This document shows positions 1 through 63,611 of a stretch of 64,000 nt of DNA, piece after piece. The notes under the pieces were generated by a model. That model saw only the letters and a list, made by a program, of their open reading frames with translations. It was not told the origin of the DNA and did not search any database. The position numbers and the translations under genes are program-made. The stretch is taken from the NCBI GenBank assembly GCA_030272155.1, contig CP126197.1, forward strand, positions 3,030,001 to 3,094,000, read 5' to 3'. Origin of the DNA: Tetradesmus obliquus. Its lineage: Eukaryota; Chlorophyta; Chlorophyceae; Sphaeropleales; Scenedesmaceae. Every line of letters starts with the position of its first letter. Positions within the stretch are counted from its first letter, which is position 1.

Positions 1-1676
1 AGAGCTTCTTGCAAATCCACCCACCTTGAGCTCCAGGTCCAGCCAAGCCTCCTAGCAACCTCCCGCCTTGAACATGTGGAGATGTGTGACATGATGCGTC
101 ATTTCTAGCACAATGTAACATGTTACAAATCCACGCACCTTGAGCTCCAGGTCCAGCCAGGCCTCCCCTCCCGCCTCGCCCTTCTCAGCAATGGTCGGCG
201 CTGTGTTGAGGCGTGTTTTGAAGGTGTGGTTGCCGCGCCCGCCGCGGCCCCCCACCATCAGCAGCGCCGTCTGCCCCGGCTGCAGCAGCTCAGCCAGTGG
301 CGGCTCGCCCTCCTGCAGATCAAAGAAGAACAGAATAAGCGGAGATGACCAGCAGAGCAGACATATGTAATGTGCTTGAACCATGTGATCTGTTGAGTGC
401 CGGCTGCCTGCTGCAGGTGCCTGCTGCAAGTGCGTTGCGCAACTCGGCATCAGGAGGCTCGTACAGAATCACTGCTGCTGCTGCTGCTGCCGCTGCTGCC
501 ACTGCTGCCCCAGTTTGCTACAATTTGGCGGCTTGTTTGCTGCAATGTAAGACTTTGCTGCCACTGCTGCCGTCGCTGCTGCTGCTGCTGCCACTGCTGC
601 TGCTGCGCACCTCTGCGTCCTTCTTGCGTATGATGGTGCCCACAGGCACGCGGATGTACATGTCGCTGCCGTCACCACCATCACGGAAGGAGCCCTGGCC
701 TGCAGACACACAACAAATTTACACAAGGCAGAACTTACACAAGGCAGAACATGAAGTAACCACAGTAAGCTGGGCAGCTAGCAAATGCGTGACACAGAAC
801 AGACAGCAGGCTACTGCAAACAAGGGTGCTGCATGCCTGTCACCGCTGCAAGAGTAAGGAGCGCCAGTAAGCATCCTGCCTCTGCTGGATTAAACTTTGG
901 AATCTGTCAAAAACAGATGCAAATCAACGCCTGCATTTCTCAGTGTGACAGCTCCCACCTGGGTAGCCGCAGTTGCCCCTGTAGTGTGCCTGGTTCCTGA
1001 AGCTCAGCAGTGAGTTCAGCCCCTCATCTGCAACTGCCCATACGTGGCCGCCCCTGCCGCCGTTGCCTCCATTAGGGCCTCCATGCTCCACATATGGCTC
1101 TCTTCTGAATGAAACACATCCAGCTCCTCCATCTCCCGATTTGACATAGATTCGAGCTGTGTCGAAGCAGCGCACGATGGCTGGGAGCTTCTTTTTCTCG
1201 CCCACCATCCGGCCGCCGCTGCTGCTGCTTGGGTCAAACGAGTCAAAGTCGTCATCATCGTCATCCATCATCATGCCTCCATAGCCGCTGTCCTCAGTGC
1301 CGTTGAAAGAGACTTCGATTCCATCTGGACTGCCGCTGCTGCCTCCTGCGGGTGATAACTTCTTGCGCTTCTTTTTGGTCAACTGCAGCAGGTTTGACGA
1401 CCAGTCGGCTGATGCTGCTGGTGCGCTGCTGTTGCCAGCAGCTGCTGGCTGCTTGTTGGAGTCAGCAGCATAGCAGAGTATGCTACTGTGCCGCTGCTGC
1501 CGCTGCTGCAGGGCCACCAGCCTGTGTTGCTGCTGCTGCTGCTGTTGCCAGATGCACTGGCAGCCCCATTGATGTGCTGGGGCACGTGTTTGTGTTTGAT
1601 GGTTGGTGGCTGAAGGAATGTGCAGCGGGCCTTGAGGCAGGGCACGCTGCATGGCTCCTGGTTGCAAGCACTGCAT
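1..1676 (-). CDS. Chloroplast-type Obg GTPase (ObgC/CgtA), N-terminal part
   Basis: Obg proteins are GTPases that act in ribosome assembly; plant ObgC works in the chloroplast. Visible exons are 959-1676, 611-699 and 139-312, and their phases agree (1, 0, 0). Exon 1 begins with a long Gln/Ser/Ala-rich leader that could hold a transit peptide, then a basic KKKRKK stretch and an acidic run, and then the start of the glycine-rich Obg fold ([29 protein letters not shown]). Exon 2 carries the [13 protein letters not shown] segment. Exon 3 carries [20 protein letters not shown] and [14 protein letters not shown]. Joining exons 2 and 3 directly reproduces the family pattern 'VPVGT..DAE.GE..AEL..PGQ'. 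The G domain lies beyond the left edge, so nucleotide binding cannot be checked. The start at 1676 is the first Met of the open frame and is provisional. Confidence 0.9.
13..180 (-). repeat. Tandem copy of an Obg exon 3' end plus donor site
   Basis: The segment 127-180 (end of the third visible Obg exon, its GTGCGT donor and the start of the intron) recurs at 13-66 with only a few changes. The intact exon is the upstream one in the transcript, and the copy lies inside the following intron. The spacing is about 114 bp, as in the other junction arrays of this window. Confidence 0.8.
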
Positions 1677-3446: not shown

Positions 3447-4718
3447 CTGGTTGCCGCGTAATCCCCCAGCTGCTGCTAGTTGCCCAGCCACCACACCCGC
3501 ACCCAACTCCCTGCTGCTGCTGCTGCTGCTGCCGCTGCTGCGGTTGCCTGCAATAGACAGCATGCTTTGCGCTTCACTGCCCTTCAGCTGCTTGGCCCCT
3601 GAGCAGTCAAGCATGAAATACGTATCAATGCTGGGCAGCTCTGTGGTGTAACCTAAATAAGAGGCCTGGAAAGTTCCCATCAGGAAGAAGATGAGCTTGC
3701 GCGGGAAGTTGAAGCAGTGCGTGTACACCACCTGCGTGTACTTGCGCGGCAGGTTGGAGGCGTCCACCTTGACGGCAAGCACCTGCAGCAGCAGCAGCAG
3801 CAGGTGTGAGAGGTGACATATGTGCTCAGCTTCAGGCTTGACAGCAGCTCGCAAGCAGACATGTTGTGTGCTTGGTGTGGTGCGTGCTGCTACTGGGGAG
3901 CACACAACATGGCAACGTGACACCGAACACCCCTTAGGTGAATGACCACATCACTGTACAGCAGCTGCTCCTGCTGCCGCTGCTGCTCCTGCTGCTGCTG
4001 CTGCCGCCATTGCTTGTCACTCACCGAGGGCTGCTCGCGTGCCGCCAGTGTCACCGGCCCCACTGCTGACCAGCCCGCCTCAGCGTCAAAGAAGCTCACG
4101 CTCACGTTGCCCGTGACAGACGCCTGCGGCAGAGCAGTGCACACACACGATTGCACTAGGCTCAGGCGGGAGCCACGCAGTGTGGGCTGCTACTGCGATG
4201 GCTGCATCAGATATGAACGCCATCGGAGGCACATTCACACCGCAGCAAGGCTGCGCCAAGATTGTCTGCAGCGCTGGCATCTAACGCCCACCTTTAAGTA
4301 GTTGGGGTGGAAGATCGGCACATCTGCTTCAGTGATGGACCAAAACCAACGAGCCCTCCAGGCTTCCGCAGTGAAGATGGCATGCGCAACACTGCACTCA
4401 AACTTCAAACCCACCTGGAGGTAGATGAAGTTGAAGACCAACACACCAGCCCCAGTGACGACCCAAAATTAACGAGCCCTCCAGGCTTCCGCAGTGAAGG
4501 TGGCATGCGCAACACTGTGCATTCAAACCCTAAACCCACCTTGAGGTAGTTGGGGTTGAAGATGGGCACATCTGCCTCCAGGATGATGCGATAGGTCAGT
4601 GTTGTCGCGTTGAAGGTCATCTTGGTGCTGTGCACCTCAATGGTGCCCACACTGACGCCACGCGGCACCAGCACAAACACACCCACCACAGCCATCACCG
4701 CAAGCAGCAGCTGCAACA

Positions 4719-7047: not shown

Positions 7048-8045
7048 GCAGCAGCAACAGCAACAGCTGAGATTGGCTCAAATGGGTGTGCAGTTGTAGC
7101 TCAGGCCAAACGGCTGCCGGTGATGTCGTGTTGGTGCTGTGCGGCGCTGTTGAGCCACAACCTCGTGATGGGTGGCGCGCTTTGGACAAGCCAAATCCCA
7201 GCTCTGACACGACATGCACCAGGAAATCCTGTTTGTTGATCAAGCAATTGCGTGTTGACAAAAACTCAAATGTGACATCACCTGTCTTGTGGCACGCTGC
7301 GTCATGTTGTGCCATGCTGCTGCAGGGTGCACCTAAGCTCAAGGTGGCCATTGTGGGTGGCGGGCTTGCAGGACTGTCCACAGCAGTGGAGCTGCTGGAC
7401 CAGGGGTGAGCGGGATGGATTTTGACTATGTGTGCTGTCTAGTTGTGTGACCAGGGTAGAGTGAGTTATGGATGTGTGACGAGAGACTGAGGGTTATGTG
7501 GCTGTTTGTAACAGCAGTGGAGCTGCTGGACCAGGGGTGAGCAGGATGGTTGTGTGGGCAGGGTGGGACAGCACTTTGTATATCAAAAATATGGTAACAG
7601 TGAAGCAGCGGAACCAGGGGTGAAGGATGTTGGGTCAACTCTGCACGGCAGATGTGGTTGGAGTCAAACTGCTAGCTGTTGACCGCCCTTTGGTCCGGCG
7701 TTGCTGTGCATGCGGTGCAGCGCATCTATACGCGTTCAGCAGCAGCCATCAAGTATCACTGATTGATGAATGTAGCTTCAGTCCTGCTTTGGCGAAGGCA
7801 GCTGTTCACAGCGCATGGTCAATGAAGTGCTTGCGTTGCGGGCATGTCGCCAATGCAGCGCGCCGTTTGCACCACACTGACCCCAGCCATTTGTTACTTT
7901 GCTGTGTTATTTTTGCAATTTAAATTGTCACACGACAGCTACGAGGTGGACATCTACGAGGGCCGCCAGTGGGTGGGCGGCAAGGTGGCCTCCTTCCAGG
8001 ACAAGGATGGCAACCACATCGAGGTGGGCAGCAGCAGCAGCTGCT

Positions 8046-8080: not shown

Positions 8081-9883
8081 GGCAGCATCGGCGGCAGCGG
8101 CAGCAGCAGCAGATGCAGCAAAAGCATCAGCAGCAGCAGCAAAGGCAGCAGCAGCGGCAGCGAGCAGCTGTTGGTCACTGTGATCGGAGCACTAATGCAC
8201 CAGTGCAGCTGCAGCGGTTGCAGCAACGACCAGCCAGCAGCAATTCGTCTGCGGGTCCTGCGCGGCAAAAATGGCTTTTCAGTAATATTGAGCCAGGCCA
8301 GTGCTTGCTGCTTGCCATCCGCCTCACACCTTCCCTCTGCTGTATGCTCCTTCACTCTCTCCCTTTCTCCCTGCTACTGCAGATGGGCCTCCACGTGTTC
8401 TTCGGCTGCTACTTCAACCTGTTCCGGCTGATGGCCAAGTGCGGCGTGCTGGAGAACCTGCTGGTCAAGGAGCACACACACACCTTCTGCAACAACGACG
8501 GAGACGTGCGCGAGCTGGACTTCAGGTTCTTCGTTGGGGGCCAAAAAATTGGCGCACCCTTCCACGGTGAGTGTGACACAGTGGGGTGATTTGCAGCAGT
8601 GGTTTTGTTTGCAACAGAGGGTGGGTTGCAGTAGCTGGACTTCAGGTTCTTTGTGGGAGGGCAGAAGATTGGCGCACCCTTCCACGGTGAGTGTGAGCAA
8701 TGGGGTTATTTGCAGCAGTGGTTTTGTTAGCAGCAGGGGGTGGGTTGCAGAAGGGGGTGCATGCGCGAGCTGGACTTCAGGTTCTTTGTTGGGGGGCAGG
8801 AGATTGGCGCACCCTTCCACGGCGAGTGAGGCTGCAGCTTTGCAGTGGGTTGTTCGCGGCAGTGTGTGGGTTGCAGCAGCAGTGGAAGGGTCACCCGCAG
8901 CAGTGGACAGCTGGATGTGCATTCGTTTTACTGCAACTGATTATTTGCAAACACGTCACACACTTTTTATCTGAAAACCTCTTACAGGCCTCAAGGCGTT
9001 CTTCACCACACCAGAGCTGGGGCCTAAGGACAAGCTGGCCAACAGCCCGGCTAACTGTGCTGTTCTACCCTGTAAACTTTTGTGCAAACCTTCCTGCAAA
9101 CTGCTCGGTTTCCTGCAGGCCTCAAGGCGTTCTTCACCACACCAGAGCTGGGGCCTAAGGACAAGCTGGCCAACAGCCCGGCTAACTGTGCTGTTCTACC
9201 CTGTAAACTTTTGTGCAAACCTTCCTGCAAACTGCTCGGTTTCCTGCAGGCCTCAAGGCGTTCTTCACCACCCCGCAGCTGGAGCCTAAGGACAAGCTGG
9301 CCAACAGCCTGGCGCTGGGCACCAGCCCCATCGTGAGGGCACTGATTGACCCAGAGGGCGGCATGCAGGTGGGTCAAACATACCATGTTATCTGGTCAAA
9401 CATAAGATGTTCTGCGTTCACAAGTGCTTGTGTCGAGCAAACGTACTAGCATGTGCACAGCGTCCATCGTGAGGGCACTGATTGACCCAGAGATGGCTTG
9501 CAGGTGGGTCAACTCGGTCAAAACATAACATGTTGTTAGTAGTTCGTGGCTGGCCAACAGCCTGGCACTGGGCACCAGCCCGATTGTGAGGGTGCTGATT
9601 GATCCAGGTGGGTCTAACAACCAAGTGGCTGGAACAACCGGATATACTGCAGGGCTGCGCATGTCAGCTGGCATGTGCTGCAATGTTTCTGCAGGCAGTC
9701 TTAGGCTCTGCTGGCACCCAGTAAATGTGCACGAGTGCCTCATGTTTTCTGTTTGTTCTGCTACTTTTTTCTGTCATGCAGGACATCCGCAACCTGGACA
9801 ACATCAGCTTTGAGGACTGGTTCAAGAGCCACGGCGGCAGTGACGCCTCCATCAAGCGCATGTGGGACCCCATCGGTGAGACG

Positions 9884-10033: not shown

Positions 10034-12889
10034 GCCTCAGCAGCAGCAGCAGTAGCACGCCGCAGCATGCAGCCGCTCATTCTCAAGCATCTAGCCCCTT
10101 GCTGGACGTGCATGCTTGCAAGCGGGTGTTGGGTCTGTCACTAACAAGCCCGCATGCCGCACACGCGTCACCTTGCAAACGGGTACTTCTTTGTTGAGTT
10201 CCCTGTTATTTGTGCATAGTTGCTGGTGTGCACCAGACATTGCGTGTTGCTGCACCGCTCAAAGTTGCACCACATGCATGTTATCCAGTGTGACTAGTCA
10301 CCCTGCAACTTACTGTAGTCAGACCAATCACATTGATGATGTTGCTTGTGCCGCAGCCTACGCGCTGGGCTTCCTCGACTGCAAGGACATCTCCGCGCGC
10401 TGCATGCCTCACTCACTCGCATATCACGCTGCCCTTTCCCCTGCCCTGCCTGCTGCTTGCTTGCCTGTATTTATCTTGCAGCCTACGCGCTGGGCTTCCT
10501 GGACTGCAAGGACATCAGCGCGCGCTGCATGCCTCACTCACCCTGCTGCTGCATGTTTCCTGCATCCTGCCTTCATCATCCTGCTGGCTATGCGCTGGGG
10601 CTTCGTGGACTGCAAGGACATCTCCGCACGCTGCATGCCTCCCTAACCCGCATCTCATGCTGCTTTCTTCCCTGCCCTGCCCGCTGCTTTGCTTGCGTCG
10701 TTTCTCCCTTCAGCCTACGCGCTGGGATTCCTGCACTGCAAGGGCATCTTCGCGCGCTGCATGCTCAATCATCCTGCAACTTACTCTGCCTTCTTCCCTG
10801 CCCTGCCTGCTGCTTGTTTGCCTGTATTTGTCTTGCAGCCTACGCGCTGGGCTTCCTGGACTGCAAGGACATCTCCGCGCGCTGCATGCTGACCATCTTC
10901 CAGTTCTTCGCCACCAAGACTGATGCCAGCGTGCTGCGCATGCTGTCCGGCAGCCCTGCTGACCGCCTGCTGAAGCCTATAACAGACTACATTGAGGCAA
11001 AGGGCGGCCGCATCCACCTGCGCTACGGCTGCAAGTGAGTGCGGGCTATCGGGCTGTGGTTGCTGCACATACACAGCCTGCTTTGGGGCGCTGTGTGTCC
11101 TGTGGACGTTGCACACGGCATTGAGACAATTGGACTGCCATCTGCACCCTGCATGTGTTCTGTTCAACATACCTGCCATAACATGTTGCTGACCATGTTG
11201 CGTTTTGCGTGCCTGCTTCTTTCCTCGCCAACCTTGCAGGGAGGTGCAGTACGAGCAGGGGCCTGATGGCAAGCCGCGCGTTACCGGCCTGCTGCTAGCA
11301 AAGGCGGGGCAGCAGCAGGTGGTGACAGCAGACGCTTACGTGGCAGCGCTGGACATTCCTGGCGTGCAGCGGCTGCTGCCGCAGCAGTGGCGCAGCATGG
11401 CTGAGTTTGACAACATCTACAAGCTGGTGGGGGTGCCGGTGATCACAGTGCAGCTGCGGTGAGTGTTGTGCAGTGCATTTTGCAGGGTTCGAGTCAGCAT
11501 GTAATTGCGATGTGCCTAGTGCAATGTGTGTGGGTATGCGGTGGGTTGTTGTGGTGGAAGGTGGCTGCTTTTGCAGACAGTCTGCGTTGATGCTGCTGCA
11601 CTGCCATGTCAAGCATGTACTTGCATTGAGCCTGCTGCCTGGTGTGGCCTGTGATGAACACTCCTCTGGAGTATATGCCCGAAAAAATCCTGTGGGAACA
11701 TAAACGAGCTTTTTAACCCTGAGGCCTGCACACCGTCCCCATTGTATCTACACCTCTTCACTCCAGCATGCATCAGTATTTTAAGCGTCCCGCAGCAACC
11801 AAGCCCAGCATCTTTGTGACTCATGCCCGCCAATAACCATCTAACCTCCTTTGCTCATCCCTGCAACTGCAGCAGCGATGGCTGGGTCACTGAGCTGAGG
11901 GATCTGAGCCTAATATTTGCTGATCTTATAATCAACGGCCTTTCACTCACCGCGCATGCAGCTACAATGGCTGGGTCACTGAGCGGAAGAATGCAGCACG
12001 TTGCTTCTGCGTTGCTCGACACCATTCAATATCAAATGCCTTGTTACTTTGTCACTTTGCCTGCAGGTATGACGGCTGGGTCACTGAGCTGAAGGATGCA
12101 GCGCGCGTGAAGGACCTGCGGGCAGCTGCAGGCATCGACAACCTGCTCTACTCCGCAGACACCTACTTCTCCTGCTTTGCTGACCTGGCGCTGACCAGCC
12201 CCGTGGATTACTTCAAGGAGGGCCAGGGCAGCCTGATGCAGTGCGTGATCACGCCAGCAGCGCCCTACATGCCTTGGACGAATGAGGCCATCGCAGCAGA
12301 GACAGACAAGCAGGTGCGGCGCTGATCGGGTACTGTTGTTACACTTGGCTGCTGTTGCTGTTGCACATCCCCGAGATCGATGAGGCAATCGCAAGAGACG
12401 TACAAGCATCTTCGCAGTTCAGAAAGGATTGCTTGTGAGTGGTGTGCTTGCTCTGTTGGGTGATTCGTTGTTGGTGGCCTAAGGTCTCTTGTGGTGTTCG
12501 CTTGGTTGCGGCTGTGCATGCCATGAACCAACAAGAAGCAAAAGAATTTCACAACCTCCGTACCTTCTCTGTACCCTCCCGCCCCGCAGGTGCGCCAGCT
12601 CTTCCCCAGCGCGCGCAACCTCAACATGACCTGGCACAGCATCGTAAAGATTGGCCAGTCCCTGTACCGCGAGGCTCCTGGAATGGACCCCTTCAGGCCA
12701 GACCAGGCCACCCCTGTGCCTAACTTCTTCCTGGCGGGCAGCTACACCAAGCAGGACTACATTGATAGCATGGAGGGAGCTACGCTGAGCGGCAGGCAGT
12801 GTGCTGGCGCAGTGCTGGCTGCGGCGCCGCGGCTGGCGGGTGCGGCGGCGAAGCTGCAGCAGCAGGCCAAGCAGGCGGTGGCGGTGTAG
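6701..12889 (+). CDS. ZDS: Zeta-carotene desaturase, plastid carotenoid biosynthesis
   Basis: This FAD enzyme desaturates zeta-carotene towards lycopene in the plastid, with electrons passed to plastoquinone. Exons: 6701-6988, 7326-7405, 7939-8023, 8383-8566, 9250-9368, 9782-9875, 10839-11034, 11240-11458, 12067-12313 and 12590-12889, giving 603 residues, close to plant ZDS length. Recognisable blocks are the dinucleotide-binding motif [98 protein letters not shown] and the C-terminal [20 protein letters not shown]. It is ZDS rather than phytoene desaturase because these blocks match plant ZDS almost word for word. The first 60 residues are Ser/Thr/Ala-rich with few acids, fitting a transit peptide, but an acceptor at 6869 could instead join a 5' exon I cannot see. 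Five of its introns carry partial exon copies. Confidence 0.96.
7382..7625 (+). repeat. ZDS exon-2 3'-end repeats
   Basis: The end of the exon encoding AVELLDQ plus its GGGGTGAGC donor (7382-7410) recurs nearly exactly at about 7509-7545 and in decayed form at about 7597-7625. The first copy is the functional exon end. Confidence 0.75.
8514..8830 (+). repeat. Three-copy ZDS junction array (exon end and donor)
   Basis: A segment encoding [18 protein letters not shown] with its donor GTGAGTGT occurs at 8514-8575, 8636-8698 and 8767-8830. The period is 122-131 bp. Only the first copy is attached to the full exon. The others lie in the following intron yet still read the same peptide with few changes. 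Confidence 0.88.
8985..9615 (+). repeat. ZDS arrays on both sides of one exon
   Basis: The acceptor and first part of the exon encoding [18 protein letters not shown] are present at about 8985-9050, 9114-9180 and 9250 onward (period 129-132 bp). The first two copies are almost identical to each other. The middle of the same exon ([14 protein letters not shown]) is then repeated after it at about 9464-9513 and 9553-9615. A single 119-nt exon is therefore flanked by arrays on both sides. Confidence 0.88.
10355..10900 (+). repeat. Five-copy ZDS acceptor array
   Basis: The acceptor CAG plus the first 45-50 nt of the exon encoding [17 protein letters not shown] occurs at about 10355, 10478, 10585, 10711 and 10839. 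Only the last continues into the full exon ([11 protein letters not shown]). The copies differ by scattered substitutions, and some change residues (for example [12 protein letters not shown] in the fourth). The pyrimidine-rich intron part (CCCTGCCCTGCC...) is repeated with the exon part. Confidence 0.9.
11865..12400 (+). repeat. ZDS exon-9 junction repeats
   Basis: Decayed copies of the start of the exon encoding [10 protein letters not shown] lie at about 11865-11905 and 11960-11990, ahead of the true exon at 12067. A decayed copy of its end (around [11 protein letters not shown]) lies at about 12372-12400, after the true donor at 12314. Confidence 0.65.
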
Positions 12890-15308: not shown

Positions 15309-17530
15309 TGGGGACAGCAACGGCGCAGCAGCGGGCCAGAATGGCACTGCCAATGCCAACTATGGGCCTGCACAGGGCTGCATCCCACCCAGTGAGTCAG
15401 CAGGCGTATCAAGCAGCTGGGCCAGACCTGTTGACAACATTTTGGATTCGTCTTGAACATGAATTGCTTTCACTGCCAGCAGCGGTTGCACGCATCAGCC
15501 CAGCCAGCTACCCTCCCTGGCTGTGAAAGCAACAGGTATTTACAATTTTAACAATCCTGGTGCTGGCCTGACTCGTATACACCTTACACCTATACGTCAT
15601 GTGCCGCTGCTGCAGCCCTGCCAGACCCACAGCCGCTGGGTGTGCGCATCCCCCGCATGGCAGCTGCTGCTGCTGATGGCGGCAGCCGCCCCAACTTCAT
15701 CGTCATCCTCACCGGTGAGACACTCGGCAGCAAGTAACTGGGGCTGCAGCTGTGTAGTTTAGGCTGTGGCTGTTGCTGTGGCTGATGCAGCAGACGCGGC
15801 CAGTGCTGCTGGCGGCAGCCGTCCCAACTTCATCGTCATCCTGGTGAGACACTCGGCAGCAGCCGACTGTGGCTGTGGCTGTGTGGCTGTGGCTGTGTGG
15901 CTGTGGCTGTGTGGCTGTGGCTGTGTGGCTGTGGCTGCGGCTGCGGCTGTGGCTGCGGCTGCGCTGTGGCTGCGGCTGCGGCTGCGGCTGTGGCTGCGGC
16001 TGTGGCTGATGCAGTAGACCCAGCCACTGCTGGCGGCAGGCGTACCAACTTCACTCTCATCAATGGCACATCATTGATCACTTGCAGATGATCAGGGCTG
16101 GGATGACATCAGCCTCAACCACCCGAGGGCCCCAGGCAGTACACCAGACTTCATCAAGACCCCAAACATGGACAAGTTCCTGCAGCGCTCCACTCGCTTC
16201 GACAACTTCTACGTGGCGCCCATGTGCTCCCAGAGCCGCGCTGCGCTGCTCACCGGCAGGGCCTTTGCGCGCACAGGCACTATGCTTGTCAATGTAGGTG
16301 CTGTGATGTCAGCTTAAGGCATGTCATTCGAAAGCAATTGCATGCAGCAGGTGTTGCAAGTCATTCTTGACAGGTGTCCTGCAGATGCAACAGATCCAGA
16401 GCTCAGCTTGTTGTCGTGTGCGGAGCTGCTTTCAGCAGCTCATTATCCCTGCTGCTGCTGCTGCCGCCTCTGCTTGACCACCAGGGTGGCTACGACTACA
16501 TGAACCGTGGTGAGAAAACCGCCGGCCACATCATGGCGGCCGATGGCTACAAGACTGCACACTTTGGCAAGTGGCACAACGGGCGCACGCTGGGCTACGA
16601 GCCGTGGCACTTTGGCTTTGAGGACAGCTGGTTCCCTGAGCTGTACATCAACCTGGACAACATGATGCGGTAAGGCTGGGCGTGCTGGTTGGCTGAGATT
16701 TAGTGTAATTTTTGTGGGTTGGTTGTGTGTGGTGCGGGGGTGGCTGCAAGAGCAATGTAGAACCTGGACAGCATGAATGCGGCGCGGGCAGTGGATGCGG
16801 CTGTTTGCCTGTGAAACCTGTCAGGTGTGGGTTTCGTGGGATATGAGCCATGGCACTTAGATTAGAGCAGAGCTGGTTCCCGGGGCCGTACACAAGCCTG
16901 GACAACATGATACAGTGTGGCCAGTGGAGCTGGCTGCATCCACTCAAAAACCCTGCCAGATAATCTACATCACATTCTACGTGTGGGTGCTGATGTAGCT
17001 TTGGATCTGCTGCAGCTTGTTGTGCTTCTGTGAAGGGGTTGCCCTTCTTCAAAAAACGTAGCGACATACACAGCGCGCCACAAAGCAAGTTGGCATGGAA
17101 AAGCACGGCTAGACATGACAAAAACTGCGGCACTGGTTGCACCCTCCGTACAACCCATACAACTCGTGAACTTCCGACTGACCGCAATGCTGGCATTCCT
17201 CTGCTGCCGTGCTGCTGTGCTGCTGTGATGCTACGCTGATGTGGGTTAACTCCGGACCTTCCACTGGTTGGCATTCAAACAGGCACAACGGTGAGGCCGC
17301 CAGTCTCTGCAGTGCCTGCTGCAGCAGCTATGAGCCGCTCCACCTGCTTTACTTAGTTTTAGTGCTTTTGTGAGCAGCAGCATGAGAAGTGGCAGCTGCC
17401 AACTCACGCAAACTACAGCAGGTGCTGATGCTGTGTGTTGTTTACACAGCCCAACGCATCTAAATGCCATCTGCATGCTGCGGCATTCCAGCTGATGTGA
17501 ATAATGTGATGTTGCAGCTGAGACAAGTGT

Positions 17531-23201: not shown

Positions 23202-23240
<39 letters not shown>

Positions 23241-40410: not shown

Positions 40411-43718
<3,308 letters not shown>

Positions 43719-44544: not shown

Positions 44545-45070
44545 ACTTGGCAGCTGGCAGAACGTGCACAGTCACGTGCTATGAGTGCATCTAAGGAAGC
44601 GTGACGTAGTTGACTGAGTATCTGTTGCTGGTTTACGGGTGTTGTCGCGCAGCACGGTGATGCACGGCTTTCTGAGTGTTGTGTGACTGTAACAATCAAG
44701 GACTTACACGACAGCGTGAACTTTGCATGCATCTGTTCGCTGTAGTTGAGGACTCTGGACCAGCATGATGGTGTAAGTGCGGATCTCCAAATGCCAGGAT
44801 GCCGATCAGGCTTTCCAGCAGGTACATCCTGCTGGTTCCTGTCCATCATTCTCGGATCATTGTAGGTGGGGTGCCGCTGCGCACCGCAGTAAGACGTCTC
44901 TGGATATAACATGAGAGATTTGGTGCTCAAAGGTGTGCAGTGTGTTTGTACGGTGCCCACTCTCCTTTTCTGGTCTCAGACCTGTGTTCAACCTGTTGTG
45001 GCTCATACCTGCGGAGCTTATGTGCCACAACGTGTTGGCACGTTAGAGAGAGAGGGGTTACAACGTGTTG

Positions 45071-45131
45071 GCAGAAGAAGAGGGGTTACACGGTGTGCAC
45101 AGGCAACTACGTTGCAACGAACACCCGAAAA
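45071..45131 (+). repeat. Direct repeat flanking the LINE relic (left copy)
   Basis: About 60 nt, including GGGGTTACACGGTGTGCACA, match 48003-48065 almost exactly. Weaker similarity continues for a further ~110 nt on the right of both copies. Confidence 0.85.
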
Positions 45132-45571
45132 TCTGGAACGTCGCAGATGACTCAGCAAAACAGGCTGTCACTGAAGGAGACTCACCCCAGAAAGTCTCTC
45201 TGTGTGTGTAACTTGACATATGGCCTTGCAGGCAAAGCCGTCAGTCACAGCACACGCAGTGTTGATGCTAAACAAAGGCAGGACTAGTGTAAACAGTGTC
45301 AGTGACAGCAAGCTGCACTTTATGCAGTGCAGCGGGCGGGCTGAACCCACAGAAACAACACCCACCAGCAGCAACACAGCCTGGCAGGCGGTGGTCTGAG
45401 GCGACAAACTGGGGAGAGAGAGCAGAGAACAAGCCAGCTGCTGCAAGGGCCGCACAACTACATGTTGCAGCAGCGATACGGCAACGCACAACTCCTGCAA
45501 AGCAAGACGGCTAGCTCTGGCATGTCAGAAGCTCACAGAGAAAGCACGTACACACAGTGAGAAGAAGGCCA

Positions 45572-48015: not shown

Positions 48016-48180
48016 GGGGTTACACGGTGTGCACAGGCAACTACGTTGCAACGAACACCCGAAAACACAGGAAAACTGCAGGAAGCTCAGCACAGGCCGT
48101 CACTCATGTGAGGCCCAACCCCAGAGAAATGGCCCCCGTGTGTAAGTTTCGGCATATGGCCATGCTAGCACAGCCGCCTT
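48003..48180 (+). repeat. Direct repeat flanking the LINE relic (right copy)
   Basis: This is the partner of 45071-45240. The first ~60 nt are nearly identical; the rest shares blocks such as CAGGC.GTCACT and CATATGGCC. The length and uneven divergence are not those of a simple target-site duplication. Confidence 0.75.
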
Positions 48181-48859
48181 CCTTACTCCACACAGTTCGC
48201 CCCCAGAAAGTGTATCCTCATACAAAACCCTGCCCTACACCCAGTGCTTCGGCCACATCATACACGTTATGGCACGTTCGTGTTGGCACGTTATGGCACG
48301 TTCGTGCCGGGGCGTGGTTATGTCACATATGGGGGGGTGCGCGGACGTAAACGGCACAGGGCAGCTCGGTGAAGTGCAGACGCGAGTTCGATTCCTGGGG
48401 TAAACGCTTTGCCATCCAAGATGGTGCCAGGACCCACATGTAACTTTCCTCTCATCATTGTTGTTAACCCAGGACACTCCCATACCACATGTATTGGCAA
48501 TTCTGTATGCGGCAATGTACTGCAGGTTCCAATGGTAGGCCTATGCACTAAAGCCTCAAGCCCACAAAAAGGATCGAAATACGGCTTATGGGGTCGAGGA
48601 ACACTCTACTCAAAGCATTGCCGTCGATGTATAATGAAGGTCGCTAGTGGTGCCCCATAACAGCTCAACCTCCAATGCTTGCATGCAAAGAAACCTTCAA
48701 AGAAAAGCCACCGCTGCTGTCAAGCACTGCTGTCACAGCAGTGGCACAGCCCACTCAGCTGTCAACGCTTCCAACAACTCGTATGATGCTCTCATTGCTA
48801 TGATTTGGTAATAGGACGATGATACCTTTGACATCACCTTGTTCTTGGTAAGAACACAG
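48181..48859. other. Gene-free stretch with short repeats
   Basis: Short repeats GCACGTTATGGCACGTTCGTG lie at about 48268-48307. A GTTCGATTCC box (about 48388) resembles a tRNA B-box, but no tRNA fold forms. No gene is supported. Confidence 0.4.
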
Positions 48860-51800
48860 CTACTTTGCCGCCCTCAGCCGCAGGCACACCGGCTTGTGGT
48901 GCGTCGGCCACATCTTGACCTGGCAGCCCTTGCTGCAGTACCGCGCAACGCCGCAGCCGCTGCAGATGCAGCTCTTGCCCGCCACCAGCTGCCACTCACT
49001 GAGCTTGGCCATGTTGAAGCAGTCGGGGTTGCCGCAGAAGATGCGCACAGGGAACTCATCAACCACAGCAGTTGCCAGCTCCTGCAGCTGCTGCCAGCAG
49101 GCCTGCAGCTGCTTCTCCATGCTGGTGAACTTCACTGACGTGCTGCTGGCATTGTTGCAGACAAACGCCTGCAGCTGGTCTGCAGCTCTAGTGCCTTGGC
49201 AGTAACTTGGGCACGCATCGACAGCTGCTTTGCTGCTGCTTGCTGCTGCCCAGTGCCGCCAGACAGGCTGCTGCCTGCAGCAGCCTGCAGCTGCTCCCTC
49301 AGCCAGCGCACGGTGCACACAGCACTGTGCAGCAGCAGCACCAGTGGTGAGGTGTGCACAGGGAATTGAAGCAGCAAGCCACCCTGCGCTGCACCATGGC
49401 GCTGATCCAGCAAAAGTGCCTTTGCGCAGGGGCCCATCACACCTGACAAGCCTCCGCTAGAGCTGCGGTCTGCTGCAAGGGAGTACAGGGAACTGAATGC
49501 TGCTTTGATGACGGCCTGCCCTGGCTGCTGCAGCATCCAGGTGCCCAGGTGCAGCATGCACTTTGCAGCCAGGACAACCCAGTCTTTGGCTGGGTTTGCT
49601 GTGGATGCGCTGCTGCAGCTAGCGTTGCTGCTGACCCTGCTGGTGCTGCTTGTGCCGCAGTTGCTGTTGTTGCTGTCTTTCTTGCTCGCTGCTAGCAGAG
49701 CAGGCTTGTGTTCAATCAGAATTGTTCCCAGCTTACAGCAGGCACCAGCTGCTGTTGCTACTGCTGCCAGTTCTGGCCACAGCTTGCCATCTGCTGGCTC
49801 CAGAGGAGCATCAAATGCTGCCCGTGGACCTTTTGCAGCTGCGAGCAGCTGCGCCAGCAGGGGTTGCTTGCTCAGCTGCTGCTGCTCCTGCTGCAGAACA
49901 GCAGATGCTGCCACTCTCTTCACACAAGTGGACACCAGTGACGCCATGCTGCGTGATAGCTGCCCCAGATCCTGCTCACTGCCGCTGGCTGCTGCTTTCA
50001 AAGCTGCATGAGCCTGCTGTGCATTCTTGTTGTTGGGCGTCATGTGAGCATCCACAATTGCCTGGGCATCTTCAGCGCTGCCATCACAGGGGAAGGCGCC
50101 ACTGAAAACCCCATGCACTGCTGATAACAGCGTGCGAGCAAATGTTGCATGTGATGCTGCACTGCGTACAGCATGCCCGCTGCTGCTGCCAGCTGAGCTG
50201 TCTGCAGCCCCTGCCTGCTGAGCTGTAGTTCCGCTGAGGGTTGCAGGTGTCCTGTGCAGGCCGCCCCTGAGACACAGCTCCATCATAGCTGCCCCCAGCG
50301 CAGGCTGCTGCATCATCACTGTCAGGTTCTGCGGCCCGCCTGCGGCACCGAGTTGGAAGCAGCGGGAACAGCAGCAGCAGCAGCAGAGGTAAGAAATCCA
50401 GAACCGTGCTGTCCAGTGTCAATGAACAGCAACTGCTGCTGAAAATCGCATGCCCAGTCAACACAGCAACATGAGAATGTATTTGGCTTGCTGACGTACA
50501 TATATTCCAGTGATATCGTTGTCACGGATACAGTGGTCACAGCTGTACCGGTTGCCCCATTGTCATAAGGACCTCGGAAACACTCCTCAGCCTTCAGGCT
50601 GACCATATACAGAAGACAGCAGTTCAAACAGCGTGGTGAGCTCGCAAACCACCTGCACTCGCGTTTTGCTGTCCCCATAGCTGGGCTGCTGCAGCAGCTG
50701 CTGCACTGCAGGTGCTGTGCACTGCATCAGCGCCTGCACAACCTGCACAGCAAATGCTGCTTCCAATCTAGCGATCCTGGTTGGCCCGATTTTAGCAGTA
50801 AGGCACAGCGTGAGATTGTGCGCAACAGCTCACTCATATCCTCCAGAGGATAAGACAGAGCTGACAGCTCTGCTAGCGTCAGCAGTAGCGGCAACACAAG
50901 CTGCTTGGGCATGCCAGAGGCACACTTGTCGCTGCAGCTCCAGCTGGCGTTGGTGGCGGTGCTCCTGCTGCTGCTGCTGCTGCTGGCCGTCCTGTCAGCA
51001 CCGCCCCTGCACTTGCTGGCATCAGCTGGCATGCGCGCCTCGTCTACATAGGAAGCTGAGGTGCTGCTGTGCTGCCGTGCTGCCATCCCCAGCGCCTTTT
51101 GCAGGGCTGTCACAGGTGCTGAATCAGGGATTTTGAAGTACTTCAGCGCGCAGTCAAGCTGATTCTCCTGCAAGCCCAGTGCTTGCAGCAGCTGCTGGTG
51201 ATGCGTAGGGCTCTGCACAGCTGCGCTTCTGCTAGGAGTGCTACTGCTGCTGCTGCCGCTGGCACGGCTGCTCACAGTGGTAGCAGGCACAGTTGTTGCT
51301 GACGGCAGGTTGCACTTGTAGACAGCTGTTGCTGCTACACTGGTGGCCAGCAGCAGCATCAGGTCTTCTGAGATCATGAAGTCCTTGAAGATGTCCTTGT
51401 AGGGCTCTGAGGTTATTGCAATGGCAAATGAGATGACTCCTGCAAACTTTGTGATCGCTTGCATGGCGGCTGTGTGCATGCCAGCCAGCTTGCTGGGCAG
51501 CTGGGTGCCTGTGCCGACTGTATGTGAGTAGCGCAGCACTGCTGCTGCCAATGAAGCAGCAGCAGGCAGCACGGCAGCAAAGGCCTTGGAGGTCAAAATT
51601 GGGCTGGGCCACATCAAGATGAGGGCCTGGGTGATGCACACCAGCGAGCTCGCCACCCCTATGACGCCTTCTAGGTGCTGCTGCGCCAGGTGCTGCTGCA
51701 GTGGCTGGGGCCTGCCCTGCTTCTGCTGCTCTTTGACCAGCTGGCTGCTTGCACGCTGGTCCTGCTTCAGCTGTGACTGCTGCAGCGTGTTGAAGACTTC

Positions 51801-53663: not shown

Positions 53664-55527
53664 CCAAAGGCCGCTTGGCAGTTGCCTGCTGTGCACCAGC
53701 TTCCATCTGGGAGCATTGCGCAGCAGCTGGGACTGCTGAGTCGGCAGCTGCCAGCCTGCTGGTGGCAGCACCTACTGCGGCCGCTTTGCTGCTGCTGGGC
53801 TTTGCAGCCTTGAACATAGATGCTATTGACCGTTGACTGGGGTCAGCAAACCGCTTCAGCAGGTCCCGCCACATTGGACATGCCTGCTGCTGCTGCTGCT
53901 GCTGCTGTGATTGCTGGCCTGATCCAACTGCTGCTGCTGCTTCTGGTGGCGGAAGCTGCAGTTCCAGCATGAGGGGCGCATGGTCGCTCCATTTGGGCGG
54001 CATGTTAAGCAGCACCTCACATGACTGCAGGTGATCCAGCAGCTGCTTGCTGCACAGCGCGTAGTCAATGCGCAACCCCTGCACACATAGATGAACGACC
54101 GTGCACATGATCAGCCACTCATCTGCCGACGAAGCCTGTAACTGGCTTCTTCAACGGGCAGAACCAACACCTATAGGCAAGCGGTCAAGTGCCATGCTCC
54201 CGTACCTCTGCCAACCGCACACACCGCCAGATGCACAGGCACCTGCCTGTCCTGCAAGCTACAAGCTGGCACCGTGCTGCCCATTTGACATGCACAACAC
54301 TGCTGAGGTAATCATGCGACTTCAGCGTTGCCACAGGCTGCTCATCACGTTCCTGCGTGACTCACCACATTGAAGGCGCGTGCGCTCGTCTTCTCATCCC
54401 ACACTGTGTACACGCCCTCCTGCTGCGGGTGCAGGCGCCGCCAGCTGTCATCCAGCGTTTGAATCAGCTGCTGCAGCGCCTGCAGCTCGCTTTCAGCATA
54501 CAGGGTATCCCAGCTGATGGCGCTGTGCACGTCACGCGGCTCTGCTGCTATGTTAAAGTCGCCGACAGCAATCACCTGCGCAGGGCAGGCGGAGTGTGCG
54601 ATTACGGTGCAAGATACCGGGTGGCTTGGGGTCGGCCACACGCATGCAGAACCGCTCCTGCCAATCCTCAACATCACTGCCAGCTAAGCTAAGCTGGCAG
54701 CTACAACAAACACAGGAGACTCAGCCTGCATGCACAGCAGCTGCCCACCTGTGGAGCAGCACACCCATGTACTCTGCAGGGCTTGCAGGAAAGCCAGCCT
54801 AGCTGGCAGCAAAACAATACACAAGCAGAGTAACACAGCATAGCAAACATGCTGCATCCACACCACCTGCCCACCTGCCGCCCACCTGCCCAGCAGCGCA
54901 TCGACCGCTCCTGCAAAAGACTTGCAGGAAGGCCATTTTGTCCGCGGGAACCACACCAAGCAGACACAACACAGCATAGCAGAGCACAGCACAGCCCACA
55001 GGCACTAATGCACAATTCATGCCCACCTTCCGCCCACTTCCTAGCGGCGCATCAACCCGCTCCTGCAAGGCTTGCAGGAAAGCCAGTTTGTCCGGCAAAG
55101 CCACACCAAGCAGACACAACACAGCACAGCGCAGCTCAGCGCAGCCCACAGGCACTACACACAATTTATGCCCACAGCGCTTACAGGAAGGCCAGCTTGG
55201 CAGGCACAATCACACCAAGCAGTCACAACACACAGCCACCACTACATAGCAGCTGCCCACCTGCCGCCCACTGCCCAGCAGCGCATCAACCCTCTCCTGC
55301 AGGGCTTGCAGGAAGGCCAGCTTGGCAGGCAGCCTCGCTCGTGCTGTCCTGTCCCCGGCATTCGGCACGTACACATTGAACAGCACGAATGCGCCATGGT
55401 CCGTGATGAGCGCCCTGCAAAAGCGGCAGCAACAATAAGAAAAGCAGCAGCATCCACAGCAGCAGTTGCGGTTACCACTCAAACTCCAGCCAATGGTAGC
55501 AAGCCCACCCAAGCAGGGTGCCTGAGC

Positions 55528-57934: not shown

Positions 57935-58593
57935 ATGGCGCACGCGGGCATCCTGGTGCTCGCTGGCGCCTTGCTGGCTTTGTGCAGCAGCACAGCTTTG
58001 GCACAGCAATCGGCGCCAGCATGCCCCGTCAAATACAACATGCAGAGCAACAGCAAAGAATTCGACCCGCTGCTGCTGGGTGGCGTGTACGATAGATGCG
58101 AGTCTGGTTGCCAGCCAAGGACAGACACATGGTGAGTGAAGACGCAGCAATGTGGCAAGCTATCTTGCACAAAGCAGATGATCTAGCTACTCAAAGTAAA
58201 CGGCAAAAACTGCAAAGCAGAAAACACAGGAGCCTTGGCAACTCAGAGGGTCTGGAGAATTTCAGCAGCATCACTGGCAGCAGGAGTTGGTAGCGATGCA
58301 TTGAGCAGCAACTGTGGCCGGGCCCCTCTCCTGACAGAAGCAGCGCAAAGGGAAAATCCATACATTCACTCACTAATTTCAACCTCCTGCAGGAGTGACA
58401 TGTGCAAGGCAGACCCTGATGAGCTGTCAACCATCAACGTGTGTGAGCGCAGCCAGCGGCAGTCCATCCTGGAGGTGGCTGACGTGGTCAGCAGCGGCGC
58501 CATCAGCGCCTTCAGCCCCTGCGAGCTGCACTCATTTCTGGGCAACAGGACGCTGTGGCTGGTCGGGTGAGTGGGGATTCGGCGGCTGGGCAG

Positions 58594-58645
<52 letters not shown>

Positions 58646-58970
58646 CGGGGTGGTGGGTCACTTGTCGCCGGCAGGTGGGTCCATCAGCGCCTTCAGCCCC
58701 TGCGAGCTGCACTCATTCCTGGACAACCGCACACTGTGGCTGGTGGGGTGAGTGGGGTTATGTGACTTCAGGCAGTGAGGCACACAAACTCCAGCACTGA
58801 GGCAGGCAGGCAGTTCATTCTGTTGTATTTGGCCAGGCACAGGGGGCGAAGAGTAACTTTTTGCAGACAGGTGGCGCCATCAGCGCCTTCAGCCCCTGCG
58901 AGCTGCACTCGTTCCTGGGCAACAGAACGCTGTGGCTGGTCGGGTGAGTGGGGATTCGGCGGCTGGGCAG

Positions 58971-59026
<56 letters not shown>

Positions 59027-62000
59027 TGGGGTGGTGAGTCACTTGTTGCAGGTAGGTGCTGGGCAACAGGAGGCAGTGGCTGGTGGGATGAGTGGGAGCT
59101 TCTGGGACCATCAACCCAGCGCACTCAGCACATTGGCAATGTGTGTTCCTGCCCCACCCCTCTTTCCTTGCATCGACTCCCACACAAACAACACCTTCAC
59201 TGTGCTGCATTGCTCCATCAGAAGCCAACCAACCAGCACACTGACGCCGCTACGCTATTACGGTGCTGTCTCTTCCATGCACCCTTTGCGCCTTGCAGTG
59301 GCTCGCATACAAAGAACACGTTTACAGCGCTGCGCTGCTTCATGCTTCCTGAACCATGCCCAGGGAGAGTGCCAGGCCATCAGCATTGCACTGCTGCCTC
59401 CTTCCTCTCTCTGCTTGCAGTGACTCCCACACCAAAGACACTTGCACTGCCCTGTGCTGCCGCTGACCAATGCCGTTGGTAGCGTTGTGGCCGGCGCAAA
59501 CGCTGACCAGTCCTAACATGAACTCAATCCTGGTTTTGTTGTGCCCCCGCAGCGACTCCCACACCAACAACACCTTCACGGCCCTGCGCTGCTTCATGCT
59601 GGACCTCTGGGACCACAAAACAACCCAGCACGACCAACACATTGCCACTGTCGATTTCTGCCGCACCCTGACTCTCCCTGCGTGCAGCGACTCCCACACC
59701 AAGAACACGTTTACAGCGCTGCGCTGCTTCATGCTGGACTTCTGGGACCACTCCCAGGGAGAGTGCCAGGCCAGCAGCATTGCACTGCTGCAGCAGCAGC
59801 TGGAGAAAGCGGCGCTGCGCGGGCACATCTACAACACGCCGCCGCGCTGCTTGCACCTGATTGGCGGCGGCCGCATCTGCCTAGTGCACAGCCCCATGGG
59901 TACTACCCTGCTGAATGATGACCCATATGTGAGTGGCTGGTTTTGGTGTGCAGTTTGTGCTTTGACAGCTTTTTCAGTCATTCAAAAGCAGCAGCAGCAG
60001 CTGGAGAAGGCGGCGCTGCGCGGCCACATCTACAACACGCCGCCACGCTGCCTGCATGTGATTGGCGGTGGCCGCATATGTTTGGTGCACAGCCCCATGG
60101 GTACTACCCTGCTCAACAACGACCCTTACGTGAATGGCTGGTTTGGTGTGGCAGTTTGTGGTTTGGTGTTATCTAGTGGTGCAAAGGCAGCAGCAGCTGG
60201 AAAAGGCAGCGCTGCGCGGCCTCATCTACAACACGCCGCCTCGCTGCTTGCACCTGATTGGCGGCGGCCGCATCTGCCTGGTGCACAGCCCCATGGGGAC
60301 TACCCTGCTGAATGATGACCCTTACGTGAGTGGCTGCTTTTGGTGTGACAATTTGTGGTTTGGTGTTATCTAGTGGTGCAAAGGCAGCAGCAGCTGGAGA
60401 ACGCGGCGCTGCGCAGCCACATCTACACAACACGCCGCCGCGCTGCCTGCATTTGATCGGCGGCGGCTGCATCTGCCTGGTGCACAGCCCTATGGGCACC
60501 ACGCTGCTGAATGATGACCCATGTGTGAGTGCCTGGTTTTGGTGCGCAGTTTGTGCTTTGACAGCTTTTTCCAGTTGTTGAAAAGCAGCAGCAGCAGCTG
60601 TAGAAGGCTGCGCTGCGCGGGCACATCTACAACACGCCGCCTCGCTGCTTGCACCTGATTGGCGGCGGCCGCATCTGCCTGGTGCACAGCCCCATGGTGA
60701 CTACCCTGCTGAATGATGACCCTTACGTGAGTGGCTGCTTTTGGTGTATCTCTCTGAGATAGCATTTCTGCGGTATAGGGGTACTGTGTATGCTTGGTGA
60801 ACGAGCAGCAACAGCAGCAGCTGACAGTGGCTGGCAGCTAGAACGCAGAAAGAAAGCACCATACATCATACGCCACCTCCGCTCATCAAACACCTGTGCC
60901 TTAATCCACCCTGCAGGACCCCGGCACGCTGCAGCTGCTGCACGCCTTCTTTGCTGCCGCGCACGACATCTTCTACATCAGCTTCTGCCGCTGGCACAGC
61001 AACAACCGCTGTTATGTAATAACCGCTGCACCTGCCAAACCCCGTGCTTAATGCACCCTGCAGGACCCCGGCACGCTGCAGCTGCCTGCTTACCATCAAC
61101 AACTATCAAGTGCATCACCACTGCACCTGCCATTACACAGACATCCCTTGTGCCTTGATGCACCCTGCAGGACCCTGGCACGCTGCAGCTGCCTGCTTAC
61201 CATCAACAATTATCAAGTGCATCACCACTGCACCTGCCATTACACAGACATCCCCTGTGCCTTGATGCACCCTGCAGGACCCTGGAACGCTGCAGCTGCT
61301 GCACTCCTTCTTTGCTGCTGCACACGACATCTTCTACATCAGCTTCGGCCTCTGGCACAGCAACAACCACTGTTATGTTACAACCACTGCACCTGCCAAA
61401 CCCCGTACTTGATGCACCCTGCAGGACCCCGGGCACGCTGCAGCTGCCTGCTTACCATCAACAACTATCAAGTGCATCACCACTGCACCTGCCAAACATC
61501 CCCTGTGCATTGATGCACCCTGCAGGATCCTGGCACGCTGCAGCTGCTGCACTCCTTCTTTGCTGCTGCCCATGACATCTTCTACATCAGCTTTGGGCGC
61601 TGGCACAGCAACAACTGCGACGGCGTGGACGCATCGTATGCTGATGCGCTGGAGGCACTGGGAGGCTACCTGCAGGTGGGCGGCAGCAGCAAGAGCAGCA
61701 GCAGCAGCAGCAGCAGCATTGTGCCAGCAGAATAACCAGCAAGCGTGAATGCCTCATGTTCTGACGCGCTGCAGGCGCTGCAGGTGAGGCGGCAGCAGCA
61801 GCAGCAGCAGCATGAACAACTGCGGCAGCAGCGGCGGCCATAATCAGCCGGGCGGAAACTTGGGCAGCATGGAGACCATTTAAGTCGCGGCAGCTTTGGG
61901 TTGTGCCAGCAAAGCGCAAGCTGTAAGCACTCAGCAGCAGAGACAGCAGGCTGGAAATTACACTTACAGTTACAAAAATGCTGAAGGCCCTTATGATTTT

Positions 62001-62198: not shown

Positions 62199-63144
62199 AG
62201 GACCAGCGCCCCACCTTCCCCAACGTCTTCTTTGCTGCTCCGCTGCATGACCACACCAGCTGCACCAACGGCGCATTCAACGACTCCCTGGGCTACTGCC
62301 TGCCGGCAACGGAAGGTGAGCCACCTATCATTGGTGGGATGTCATCTCCTCAACGGTTGCCTGCCTGCAGAGATAGCTGGTCGAAAAAGTTGCGTCTGAA
62401 CCCAGTCATCACACCCACCTTTTAATAGTGTGAGCCGCCACAGGATGAAGTGTGCAGTGTCCAGTACAGCGTGTCATTGCAGTAAGGACCGCCATGTGTG
62501 TTATTTTTTATATGTAGTACGGTCTACCGTTAAACAGCACCTGGGTGGCTGCTGGCTGCTGTCTTTGTGCAGGCGGCTACCCTCTTGAGTTTGGCAAGAC
62601 GCTGCAGCGAGCGGCACGCGACATCCTTACAGTCAAGTGAGCACATGTTACTGCAATGAGGGGCTGTACATTCTTACTGTCAAGCGAGCACACATTGTTG
62701 CACATGGCTGCAAGCGAGCGGTGTGGAGCAGCTGGTGTATTGTCACCCGCTGTTATATGGCAGCATGCGGCTGACGTGGCTGGCAGCTCATGCAGCTGGC
62801 AGCCGCAGCTAGCCCTGCCTGTGACAGATGCCGCACCCTGTTTTCATGTGCAAGCAGGCGGCAGTGCGGCCCACCAACTTCTCATGTGTTTTACAGTGAT
62901 GCCCATCAGCAAGTCGCTAGGACCAGTGCAATTCAGCACAGGATTCAGCTGCAACACCCATCAACACGTCATCTTTCTATCTGTTACAATAACTGTTATA
63001 ACATATGTTATACCATGTGTCACAGGTATGGTGTGCCGCTCATCAGCTCCTACCAGGCCAGCCTCATGCTGCATGACGGCCATGTGCTGCCCAGGCAGAC
63101 CATCGCGGGGCGCGTGGACTGCCTGCACTACTGCAGGTGAGCCC

Positions 63145-63184
<40 letters not shown>

Positions 63185-63316
63185 GCTTGTTTACTGGCAG
63201 CATGTGGAGCACTGCCAGCTGTTGTCTGCCGCAGTTGCATAGCGTGGCAGCGCGTGGACTGCCTGCACTACTGCAGGTGAGCCTGGCAGCAGCAGCAGCA
63301 AGTAGGAGCAGCAATG

Positions 63317-63353
<37 letters not shown>

Positions 63354-63381
63354 AGAGCAGAGGATAGCGCTAGCAGCAGAG

Positions 63382-63421
<40 letters not shown>

Positions 63422-63611: not shown

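Follow-up and report, generated by a model that had tools for sequence, protein, structure and literature searches.

According to one study, duplications within genes, some of them with introns, are reportedly common. Tandem duplication has also been tied to the birth of introns: in the potato RdRp gene, one tandem duplication with an acceptor-spanning anatomy made an intron (PMC4974935), and the mechanisms of intron gain by tandem duplication have been reviewed (PMC3443670; the papers named here and below are cited from excerpts). A survey of plants and green algae describes significantly more intron tandem repeats near intron-exon junctions, especially in Chlamydomonas and Volvox (PMC3887541), so that repeats near green algal intron ends and one acceptor-spanning duplication are both already in print. 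Short tandem duplications arise in mouse stem cells from fill-in and joining of staggered breaks with overhangs of 43–50 bp (PMC8355091). Tetradesmus obliquus itself has been included in a comparison of Sphaeropleales, which gives 7.8 introns per gene and a mean intron of 462 bp, and the excerpts of that paper do not mention exon-edge copies (PMC5966456). Among the matches listed in a mostly freely readable literature, at the level of titles and abstract openings, exon-edge copying on the scale described here was not found.

Results

Genes of the window

The window, the whole stretch of 64,000 nucleotides that was analysed, is bases 3030001–3094000 of contig 7 in a T. obliquus genome read as 104,662,953 bases in 17 contigs. 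A preliminary description had placed arrays of repeated exon edges in nine named genes. Repeats are present at all nine places, with edges that are protein-anchored in three genes (ZDS on protein P0001, sulfatase on P0121 and TBL-like on P0241) and taken from an ab initio model in the remaining six (Obg, LEA_2-like, GFA, GH9, NMNAT and APE2). Only the ZDS anchor is a likely transcript; P0121 is from another T. obliquus annotation, and P0241, a relative of the TBL-like gene, is annotated with PF13839. Pfam supports the Obg domain in the Obg-like gene, GH9 (PF00759), the NMNAT-type CTP_transf_like domain (PF01467) and the APE2-type Exo_endo_phos domain (PF03372); the LEA_2-like fragment matches TMEM106 alone, below the cut-off, and the GFA and TBL fragments gave no Pfam match.

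The gene finder was trained three ways, and the second training was used, with exons of at least 60 bases and a coding score of at least 8; the first had come to favour CTG-repeat acceptors and the third very small exons. Part-exon copies confuse gene prediction, and several were taken for exons by the ab initio model here. A predicted protein on the minus strand at about 44857–49612, perhaps merged by the gene finder, resembles, in our view, the terminal part of a reverse transcriptase from a non-LTR retrotransposon, beside a MYND-type zinc finger. A distant repeat pair, 79% alike, lies at 45073–45240 and 48007–48176.

Anatomy of the arrays

Each cluster in the anchored genes repeats the beginning or the end of an exon, in most cases 25–126 bases, together with a part of the intron, and in the arrays read each copy carries its own splice site and repeats the same edge. 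At 17716 in the sulfatase gene the repeated exon part is about 9 bases. As first described, acceptor-type arrays in ZDS, sulfatase and TBL-like end with the intact exon and donor-type arrays begin with it. By our own count, at least one copy lies at 20 of the 58 internal exon edges of these three genes.

ZDS (plus strand) has a donor pair at 7380–7549 (offset 131; the real exon ends at 7405), a donor array of three copies at 8507–8880 (offsets 120 and 255; real exon ending at about 8567), an acceptor array at 8985–9313 with a period of 131 and the real exon last, starting at 9250, a donor array at 9296–9607 (offsets 136 and 253; real exon end 9368), an acceptor array at 10353–10890 with four copies ahead of the real exon at 10839, and an acceptor pair at 11954–12105 (offset 105; real exon start 12067).

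In the sulfatase gene (plus strand) donor pairs are at 15671–15911 (offset 133; real exon end 15714), 16591–16911 (offset 246; end 16669), 17708–17848 (offset 107; end 17716), 21398–21590 (offset 160; end 21422) and 22671–23042 (offset 306; end 22730), and acceptor pairs at 20819–20971 (offset 103; real exon start 20930) and 23216–23402 (offset 104; start 23347). An acceptor array with a period of 120 at 18490–19157 places five copies ahead of the real exon at 19094, and another at 21765–22305 has offsets of 235, 236 and 471 and its real exon starting at 22241. In the donor array at 20123–20774 the real exon ends at 20189 and is followed by four more copies, with a match at 20366–20431 that crosses a stop codon. 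Within 22671–23402, two part-exon copies agree with P0121 at residues that are different in the working exon (D for E; M for L), which looks as though the copies had kept an older state.

The TBL-like gene (plus strand) has a donor array at 58496–59096 (offsets 181 and 377; real exon end about 58566), acceptor copies at 59101–59771 ahead of the real exon at about 59686, a donor array with a period of 201 at 59787–60747 (real exon end 59928), an acceptor array at 60887–61618 with a period of 107 and nested repeats (real exon start 61526), and a donor pair at 63110–63276 (offset 140; real exon end about 63137). Within 59787–60747, the match at 60589–60735 crosses a stop codon and that at 60399–60521 begins out of frame.

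Where edges are ab initio, the repeats on the minus strand are a donor-side pair in the Obg-like gene at 9–176 (offset 114), a pair or triple in the LEA_2-like gene at 4287–4578 (offsets 123 and 248), a GH9 array at 30639–31421 (period about 114) and two adjoining GH9 arrays at 33629–34429 (offsets 118–119 and 223–336), and an APE2-like array at 54719–55333 (offsets 109, 152 and larger). On the plus strand, the NMNAT-like gene has an array at 41188–41766 (offsets 111, 160 and larger) and a pair at 42064–42439 (offset 271).

Short local repeats across the genome

For comparison with the window we took a systematic sample of twenty 10-kb stretches, one from base 200001 of every contig (17 in all) and three from base 1200001 of contigs 1–3; stretch L010 is N throughout and was dropped, leaving 19 readable stretches. 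Self-BLAST of the window gave 95 near pairs (offset below 2500) versus four far ones and, with simple repeats masked, 94 near (offset up to 1500) and one far; a control shuffled in 6-base blocks, one shuffle per sequence, gave no near repeats. Masking takes out 9.0% of the window, across which CAG/CTG-type triplet tracts are very common. Local direct repeats make up 16.4% of the window, and in the sample near repeats are present in 16 of the 19 readable stretches, with a mean coverage of 10.7% and a median of 3.8%. The repeat feature is dense, widespread and real, and the genome-wide reach claimed for it is supported by these stretches, taken at fixed places on 17 contigs. Two sample stretches, L012 and L024, lack short local repeats but have distant ones, and predicted genes recur in both at about 3.6 and 4.3 kb.

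Near pairs are overwhelmingly direct (300, versus three inverted), and the copies lie head-to-tail and close together, as local tandem duplication would leave them. The smallest spacing over 102 clusters of window and sample has a median of 120 bp and quartiles of 102 and 160. Copies had been said to recur mostly every 115–130 bp; the median agrees, but only nine of the 35 window clusters have their smallest offset in that range, and 26 fall within 96–135. The single masked match beyond 1500 bases means that the genes of the window share no array element, the 14-bp palindrome discussed below alone recurring, and this does not fit introner-type mobile introns.

The arrays were read at the DNA level in a single assembly, and an assembly artefact is a rival reading. 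We find it hardly credible: the exon parts of the copies mostly differ from one another (0.68 to 1.00 identical in 64 comparisons), the spacing varies, and the repeats recur in stretches across chromosomes.

Enrichment at exon edges

With six partly read sulfatase paralogs added, the anchored set comprises nine genes with 71 exons over 46 kb. For paralogs C4, C5a and C5b the anchor was a related T. obliquus protein (P0121, P0144), and for the others it was their own or nearly their own. The set is biased: the window sulfatase and its six paralogs make up seven of its nine genes, and all six paralogs were hit when the window array served as the DNA query, a route that tends to pick up genes carrying arrays at this junction. 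The script places 31 of the 35 clusters in these nine genes at an exon edge versus 19.6 expected, with none of 2000 shifts as high; the four script misses (ZDS 7405, C8 4277, C8 4414 and C5b 605) touch an edge on reading by eye, but the expectation uses script edges and the like-for-like figure is 31 and not 35 of 35. The test regions were cut at gene ends and so leave out two clusters that lie off splice edges, a 61-bp pair 5′ of C7 and a repeat of 22-bp period at the 3′ end of C8. For the three window genes alone, 17 of 19 clusters are at an edge by script (10.4 expected, P 0.0004), and of the two misses one is next to a masked CTG tract, at 23347, while the other is at 63137, the final edge in the list, which that test did not count as a junction.

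Ab initio exons give a similar picture. Thirty of the 35 window clusters touch a confident edge versus 17.6 expected, and in the systematic sample, which is a fairer test than the nine-gene set, 45 of 67 do so (27.0 expected, sd 3.6; none of 1000 shifts as high). Clusters with no confident edge (five of 35 in the window, 22 of 67 in the sample) result partly from the incomplete exon model. Exon-only clusters number none in the window versus 1.9 expected, and two in the sample versus 6.4. When all ab initio exons are admitted the excess is weaker, with 173 of 364 copy intervals at edges versus 134.1, and repeat coverage is equal, at 0.110 in exons and 0.119 in introns (0.125 and 0.124 unmasked). 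The preliminary description had offered to give up its claim if repeats were no commoner at junctions than elsewhere; in the sample they are commoner. Its statement that the repeats are limited to pieces spanning splice sites is nearly right for the anchored genes, but the C7 pair, the C8 repeat and an intron-only repeat in the window (49 bp × 1.9 at 17833–17927) fall outside it.

Such an excess would be expected if breaks or nicks tied to transcription, splicing or exon-positioned chromatin occurred at exon borders and their repair duplicated about 120 bp. All 35 anchored clusters touch an edge once the four read by eye are included, none is intron-only at that threshold, and the spacing is fairly narrow. 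We nevertheless hold this boundary-directed origin to be unlikely, for reasons that emerge when the copies are sorted by likeness.

Arrays in sulfatase paralogs

Copies stand ahead of the exon encoding VWAMLEY in five of seven sulfatase-family genes; C1 and C8 are without them. Of 12 copies of this exon, nine find their nearest match in another copy of the same gene, and three tie with a close paralog. The intron parts of several paralogs also resemble each other, so that, on these alignments, a long-standing array that turns over is just as probable as independent origin at the same junction. In the C1 paralog (contig 1, 5096495–5100692; L005, L032) the VWAMLEY exon is divided by an additional intron, at the point where five family members carry copies. 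No repeat cluster is present in the C1 gene region, and a duplication origin of this intron found no support, there being no significant remnant (score 33 versus a maximum of 37 in 200 shuffles).

Likeness among copies

Copies had been said to diverge with distance, and this is not general. The outermost copy of the sulfatase 19094 array is indeed the least alike (0.70), the others being in no order, but identities in the ZDS 10839 array run 0.98, 0.96, 0.94 and 0.92 from the farthest to the nearest copy, and those in the TBL 59928 array run 0.85, 0.94, 0.88 and 0.95 from the nearest to the farthest. Over 30 copy-to-copy pairs, exon parts are 0.869 identical on average and intron parts 0.769, with random sequence at 0.72.

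Whether duplication seeks out borders can be judged from pairs that are alike over the whole unit, the least eroded class. Keeping whole-unit pairs leaves 14 clusters in the nine genes, partly alike pairs 33 and all pairs 35. At edges, whole-unit clusters show no significant enrichment: 11 of 14 versus 10.3 expected in the nine genes (P 0.46), 17 of 30 versus 14.2 in the sample (P 0.195) and 12 of 14 versus 9.6 in the window (P 0.13), although with 14, 30 and 14 clusters, and such arrays being long, these tests have low power. Partly alike clusters carry the excess, with 30 of 33 at edges versus 16.8, 42 of 60 versus 21.4 and 30 of 34 versus 15.7 in the same three sets, and their partial likeness may be erosion or the original state. 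Pairs of at least 90% identity are also in excess at edges (18 of 22 versus 9.4, 20 of 33 versus 10.4 and 16 of 17 versus 6.9), which speaks for a boundary-directed process. The suggestion that duplication is targeted to or tolerated at junctions divides: tolerance fits, and targeting finds no backing in whole-unit pairs, which are near chance at edges in these low-power tests.

A neutral simulation, in which duplication ages were spread evenly up to 0.4 change per site and exon-internal and two-edge units were purged, bears on the same question. Between 0.51 and 0.53 of the random placements that selection tolerates span an edge anyway, which again weakens the case for border-seeking. Because one partner is constrained, edge copies remain detectable for longer, which raises edges to 57–64% of detected cases; whole-unit pairs make up 70–80% of detected edge cases. 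Simple survivorship, that is, random duplication with neutral decay, consequently falls short of the 31 of 35 found by script, and it also predicts a larger whole-unit class than the 14 clusters seen beside 35 for all pairs. An exchange step or a real edge preference must carry much of the signal. Targeting of duplication to splice junctions is possible but unproven. The form of this idea in which exon-intron borders direct duplication through breaks linked to co-transcriptional splicing or exon-positioned chromatin we think improbable; if it were true, splice junctions would be mutation hot spots and introns would be lengthened copy by copy.

The two halves of a copy can also be compared. For this, 34 pairs were picked by hand in three genes; they come from 17 arrays and do not include those at 9368, 17716, 59686 and 63137 or certain copies within other arrays. 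Between the members of a pair, the intron flank differs more than the likeness of the exon part would allow under drift (P <0.05) in 16 or, at the lower indel rate, 18 of the 34 pairs, while five or nine have P >0.5. Eleven of the 16 over-diverged flanks score no better than unrelated sequence, and the exon parts of the 16 are 83–100% alike. Plain duplication and drift leave this exon-limited likeness unexplained.

One way to obtain it is to copy exon-edge pieces into the intron with no flank at all, as templated insertion in the course of break repair might do; likeness would then end at the splice site from the outset. The over-different flanks are what this predicts, and in ZDS 9250 and 10839, read by eye, the likeness of the outermost acceptor copies ends at the acceptor CAG. 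However, flanks are alike in ZDS 8568/8688 and TBL 58566/58943, the C8 pair 2710/2932 and ZDS 7405 show by eye flanks that are eroded but still recognisable, and nothing in templated insertion would make it end at splice sites. We judge flankless copying quite improbable as the source of the arrays.

Are the copies used?

In the ZDS protein P0001, which is transcript-like and 99% identical over the whole query, each duplicated segment appears once. P0001 appears to come from spliced RNA, since its longest source contig is 2216 bases for 585 residues, versus a gene span of about 6.4 kb. No exonised copies were seen in 17 sulfatase-family and two SGNH/TBL-family T. obliquus proteins, among the matches listed; one of these 19 has a glutamine-rich repeat of another kind.

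Free drift of a copy beside a constrained exon gives differences of about 1:1:2 by codon position, whereas two coding copies give a far stronger third-position excess. Differences between copies and working exons are distributed 63:60:130 over 28 copies and 628 codons, with three stop codons, in copies found by protein likeness (at least 12 codons, less than 25% difference), a choice that biases against changes at positions 1 and 2. Of 18 acceptor-side copies 15 retain the AG, and of 16 donor-side copies 15 retain the GT when its position may vary by a base or two, near the 0.81 expected under drift at about 0.1 change per site. Spacing modulo 3 over the 102 clusters is 40:31:31, with no clear frame preference.

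These data bear on the proposal that the copies are functional, as decoy splice sites or as poison or alternative exons under selection. Most copies do keep their AG or GT, and exon parts are better kept than intron parts. Against this stand codon positions near 1:1:2, stop codons and a frameshift within copies, the indifferent frame of the spacing, the single occurrence of each segment in P0001 and the lack of exonised copies in the 19 proteins, and we consider a function very improbable. The roles that had been suggested for the copies, as decoy splice sites, poison exons or new introns, are so far not supported, the extra intron of C1 included. Judged from such substitution patterns, the copies are probably neutral part-exons, unused debris; their tolerance at boundaries, also proposed at the outset, agrees with the ZDS protein.

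A recurrent palindrome

The 14-bp palindrome TGTAACATGTTACA lies at window 114–127, between the copies of the Obg-like pair. It has 60 sites in the genome, versus one for a reversed control, and several site pairs are spaced 120–240 bp apart. Some sites are 15–45 bases from an acceptor-like CAG, and a branch-site region, a hairpin and an element remnant are candidates for its role. By eye, eight of eight TAACATGTTA sites in the sequence then at hand lie inside arrays, and seven of the eight are in the window sulfatase and its paralogs. Among 20 further TGTAACATGTTACA stretches, of which 301–401 bases each were read, seven have a duplication of at least 36 bases at an offset of 109–265 and 13 have none. 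Palindrome words are raised only 1.4- to 2.3-fold in array interiors. The palindrome was rejected as a general duplication trigger.

Discussion

The reading that we favour, at evenly balanced confidence, is that ordinary short duplication is tolerated where splicing ignores part-exons, and that the exon part is kept alike by exchange with the working exon. Short local tandem duplications, typically of about 100–135 bp, would occur frequently across the T. obliquus genome, and one that falls over a single exon edge would yield a complete exon and a part-exon stranded in the intron. Under exon definition, which we assume for this alga, a part-exon with a single splice site goes unrecognised and a complete exon is recognised. 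Splicing would then stay with the complete exon, the part-exon having no partner splice site nearby, and because part-exons would go unrecognised, several near-identical acceptors or donors could leave the mRNA undisturbed. The stray copy would be tolerated and drift freely, as the codon positions, the stop codons and the unremarkable loss of splice dinucleotides suggest.

Selection would presumably purge exon-internal and whole-exon duplications, consistent with exon-only clusters being below expectation, and intron-only duplications would lose likeness faster and fall out of detection. The exon half of an edge copy, in contrast, faces a constrained exon, and in about half of the pairs measured it is more alike than flank and drift allow. 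The copies do not seem to be under protection as coding sequence; from this we infer that the working exon refreshes the exon part, and that copies are added, through gene conversion or unequal crossing, although conversion tracts were not seen directly. Exchange would operate only where likeness persists, and hence on the exon part, and would explain why copies mostly resemble those of their own gene. The anchoring of arrays at junctions would on this account stem mainly from tolerance and persistence and not from a duplication machine that seeks boundaries.

If the feature is general, part-exon copies would contribute much to intron growth at little cost and would supply many splice sites that are near-perfect yet unused. 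The copies would be natural replicates for how the spliceosome picks among nearly identical sites, and part-exon arrays would offer a mutation process whose placement is testable between strains.

Among known systems, tandem exon duplication with mutually exclusive exons differs from these arrays, in which the copies are part-exons and each segment occurs once in P0001. The excerpts of the mouse stem cell work (PMC8355091) describe a known route to short direct duplications that needs neither repeats nor homology, and draw no link to exon edges. In the survey of plants and green algae (PMC3887541) the frequent intron motif is GT/AC; its excerpts leave exon-edge copies unmentioned, and T. obliquus is not among its two algae. 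The nearest counterpart in anatomy, the potato RdRp duplication (PMC4974935), is described in its excerpts as producing one new intron, whereas in T. obliquus many genes are involved, with multi-copy arrays at donor as well as acceptor sides, and the duplications leave the mRNA apparently unchanged.
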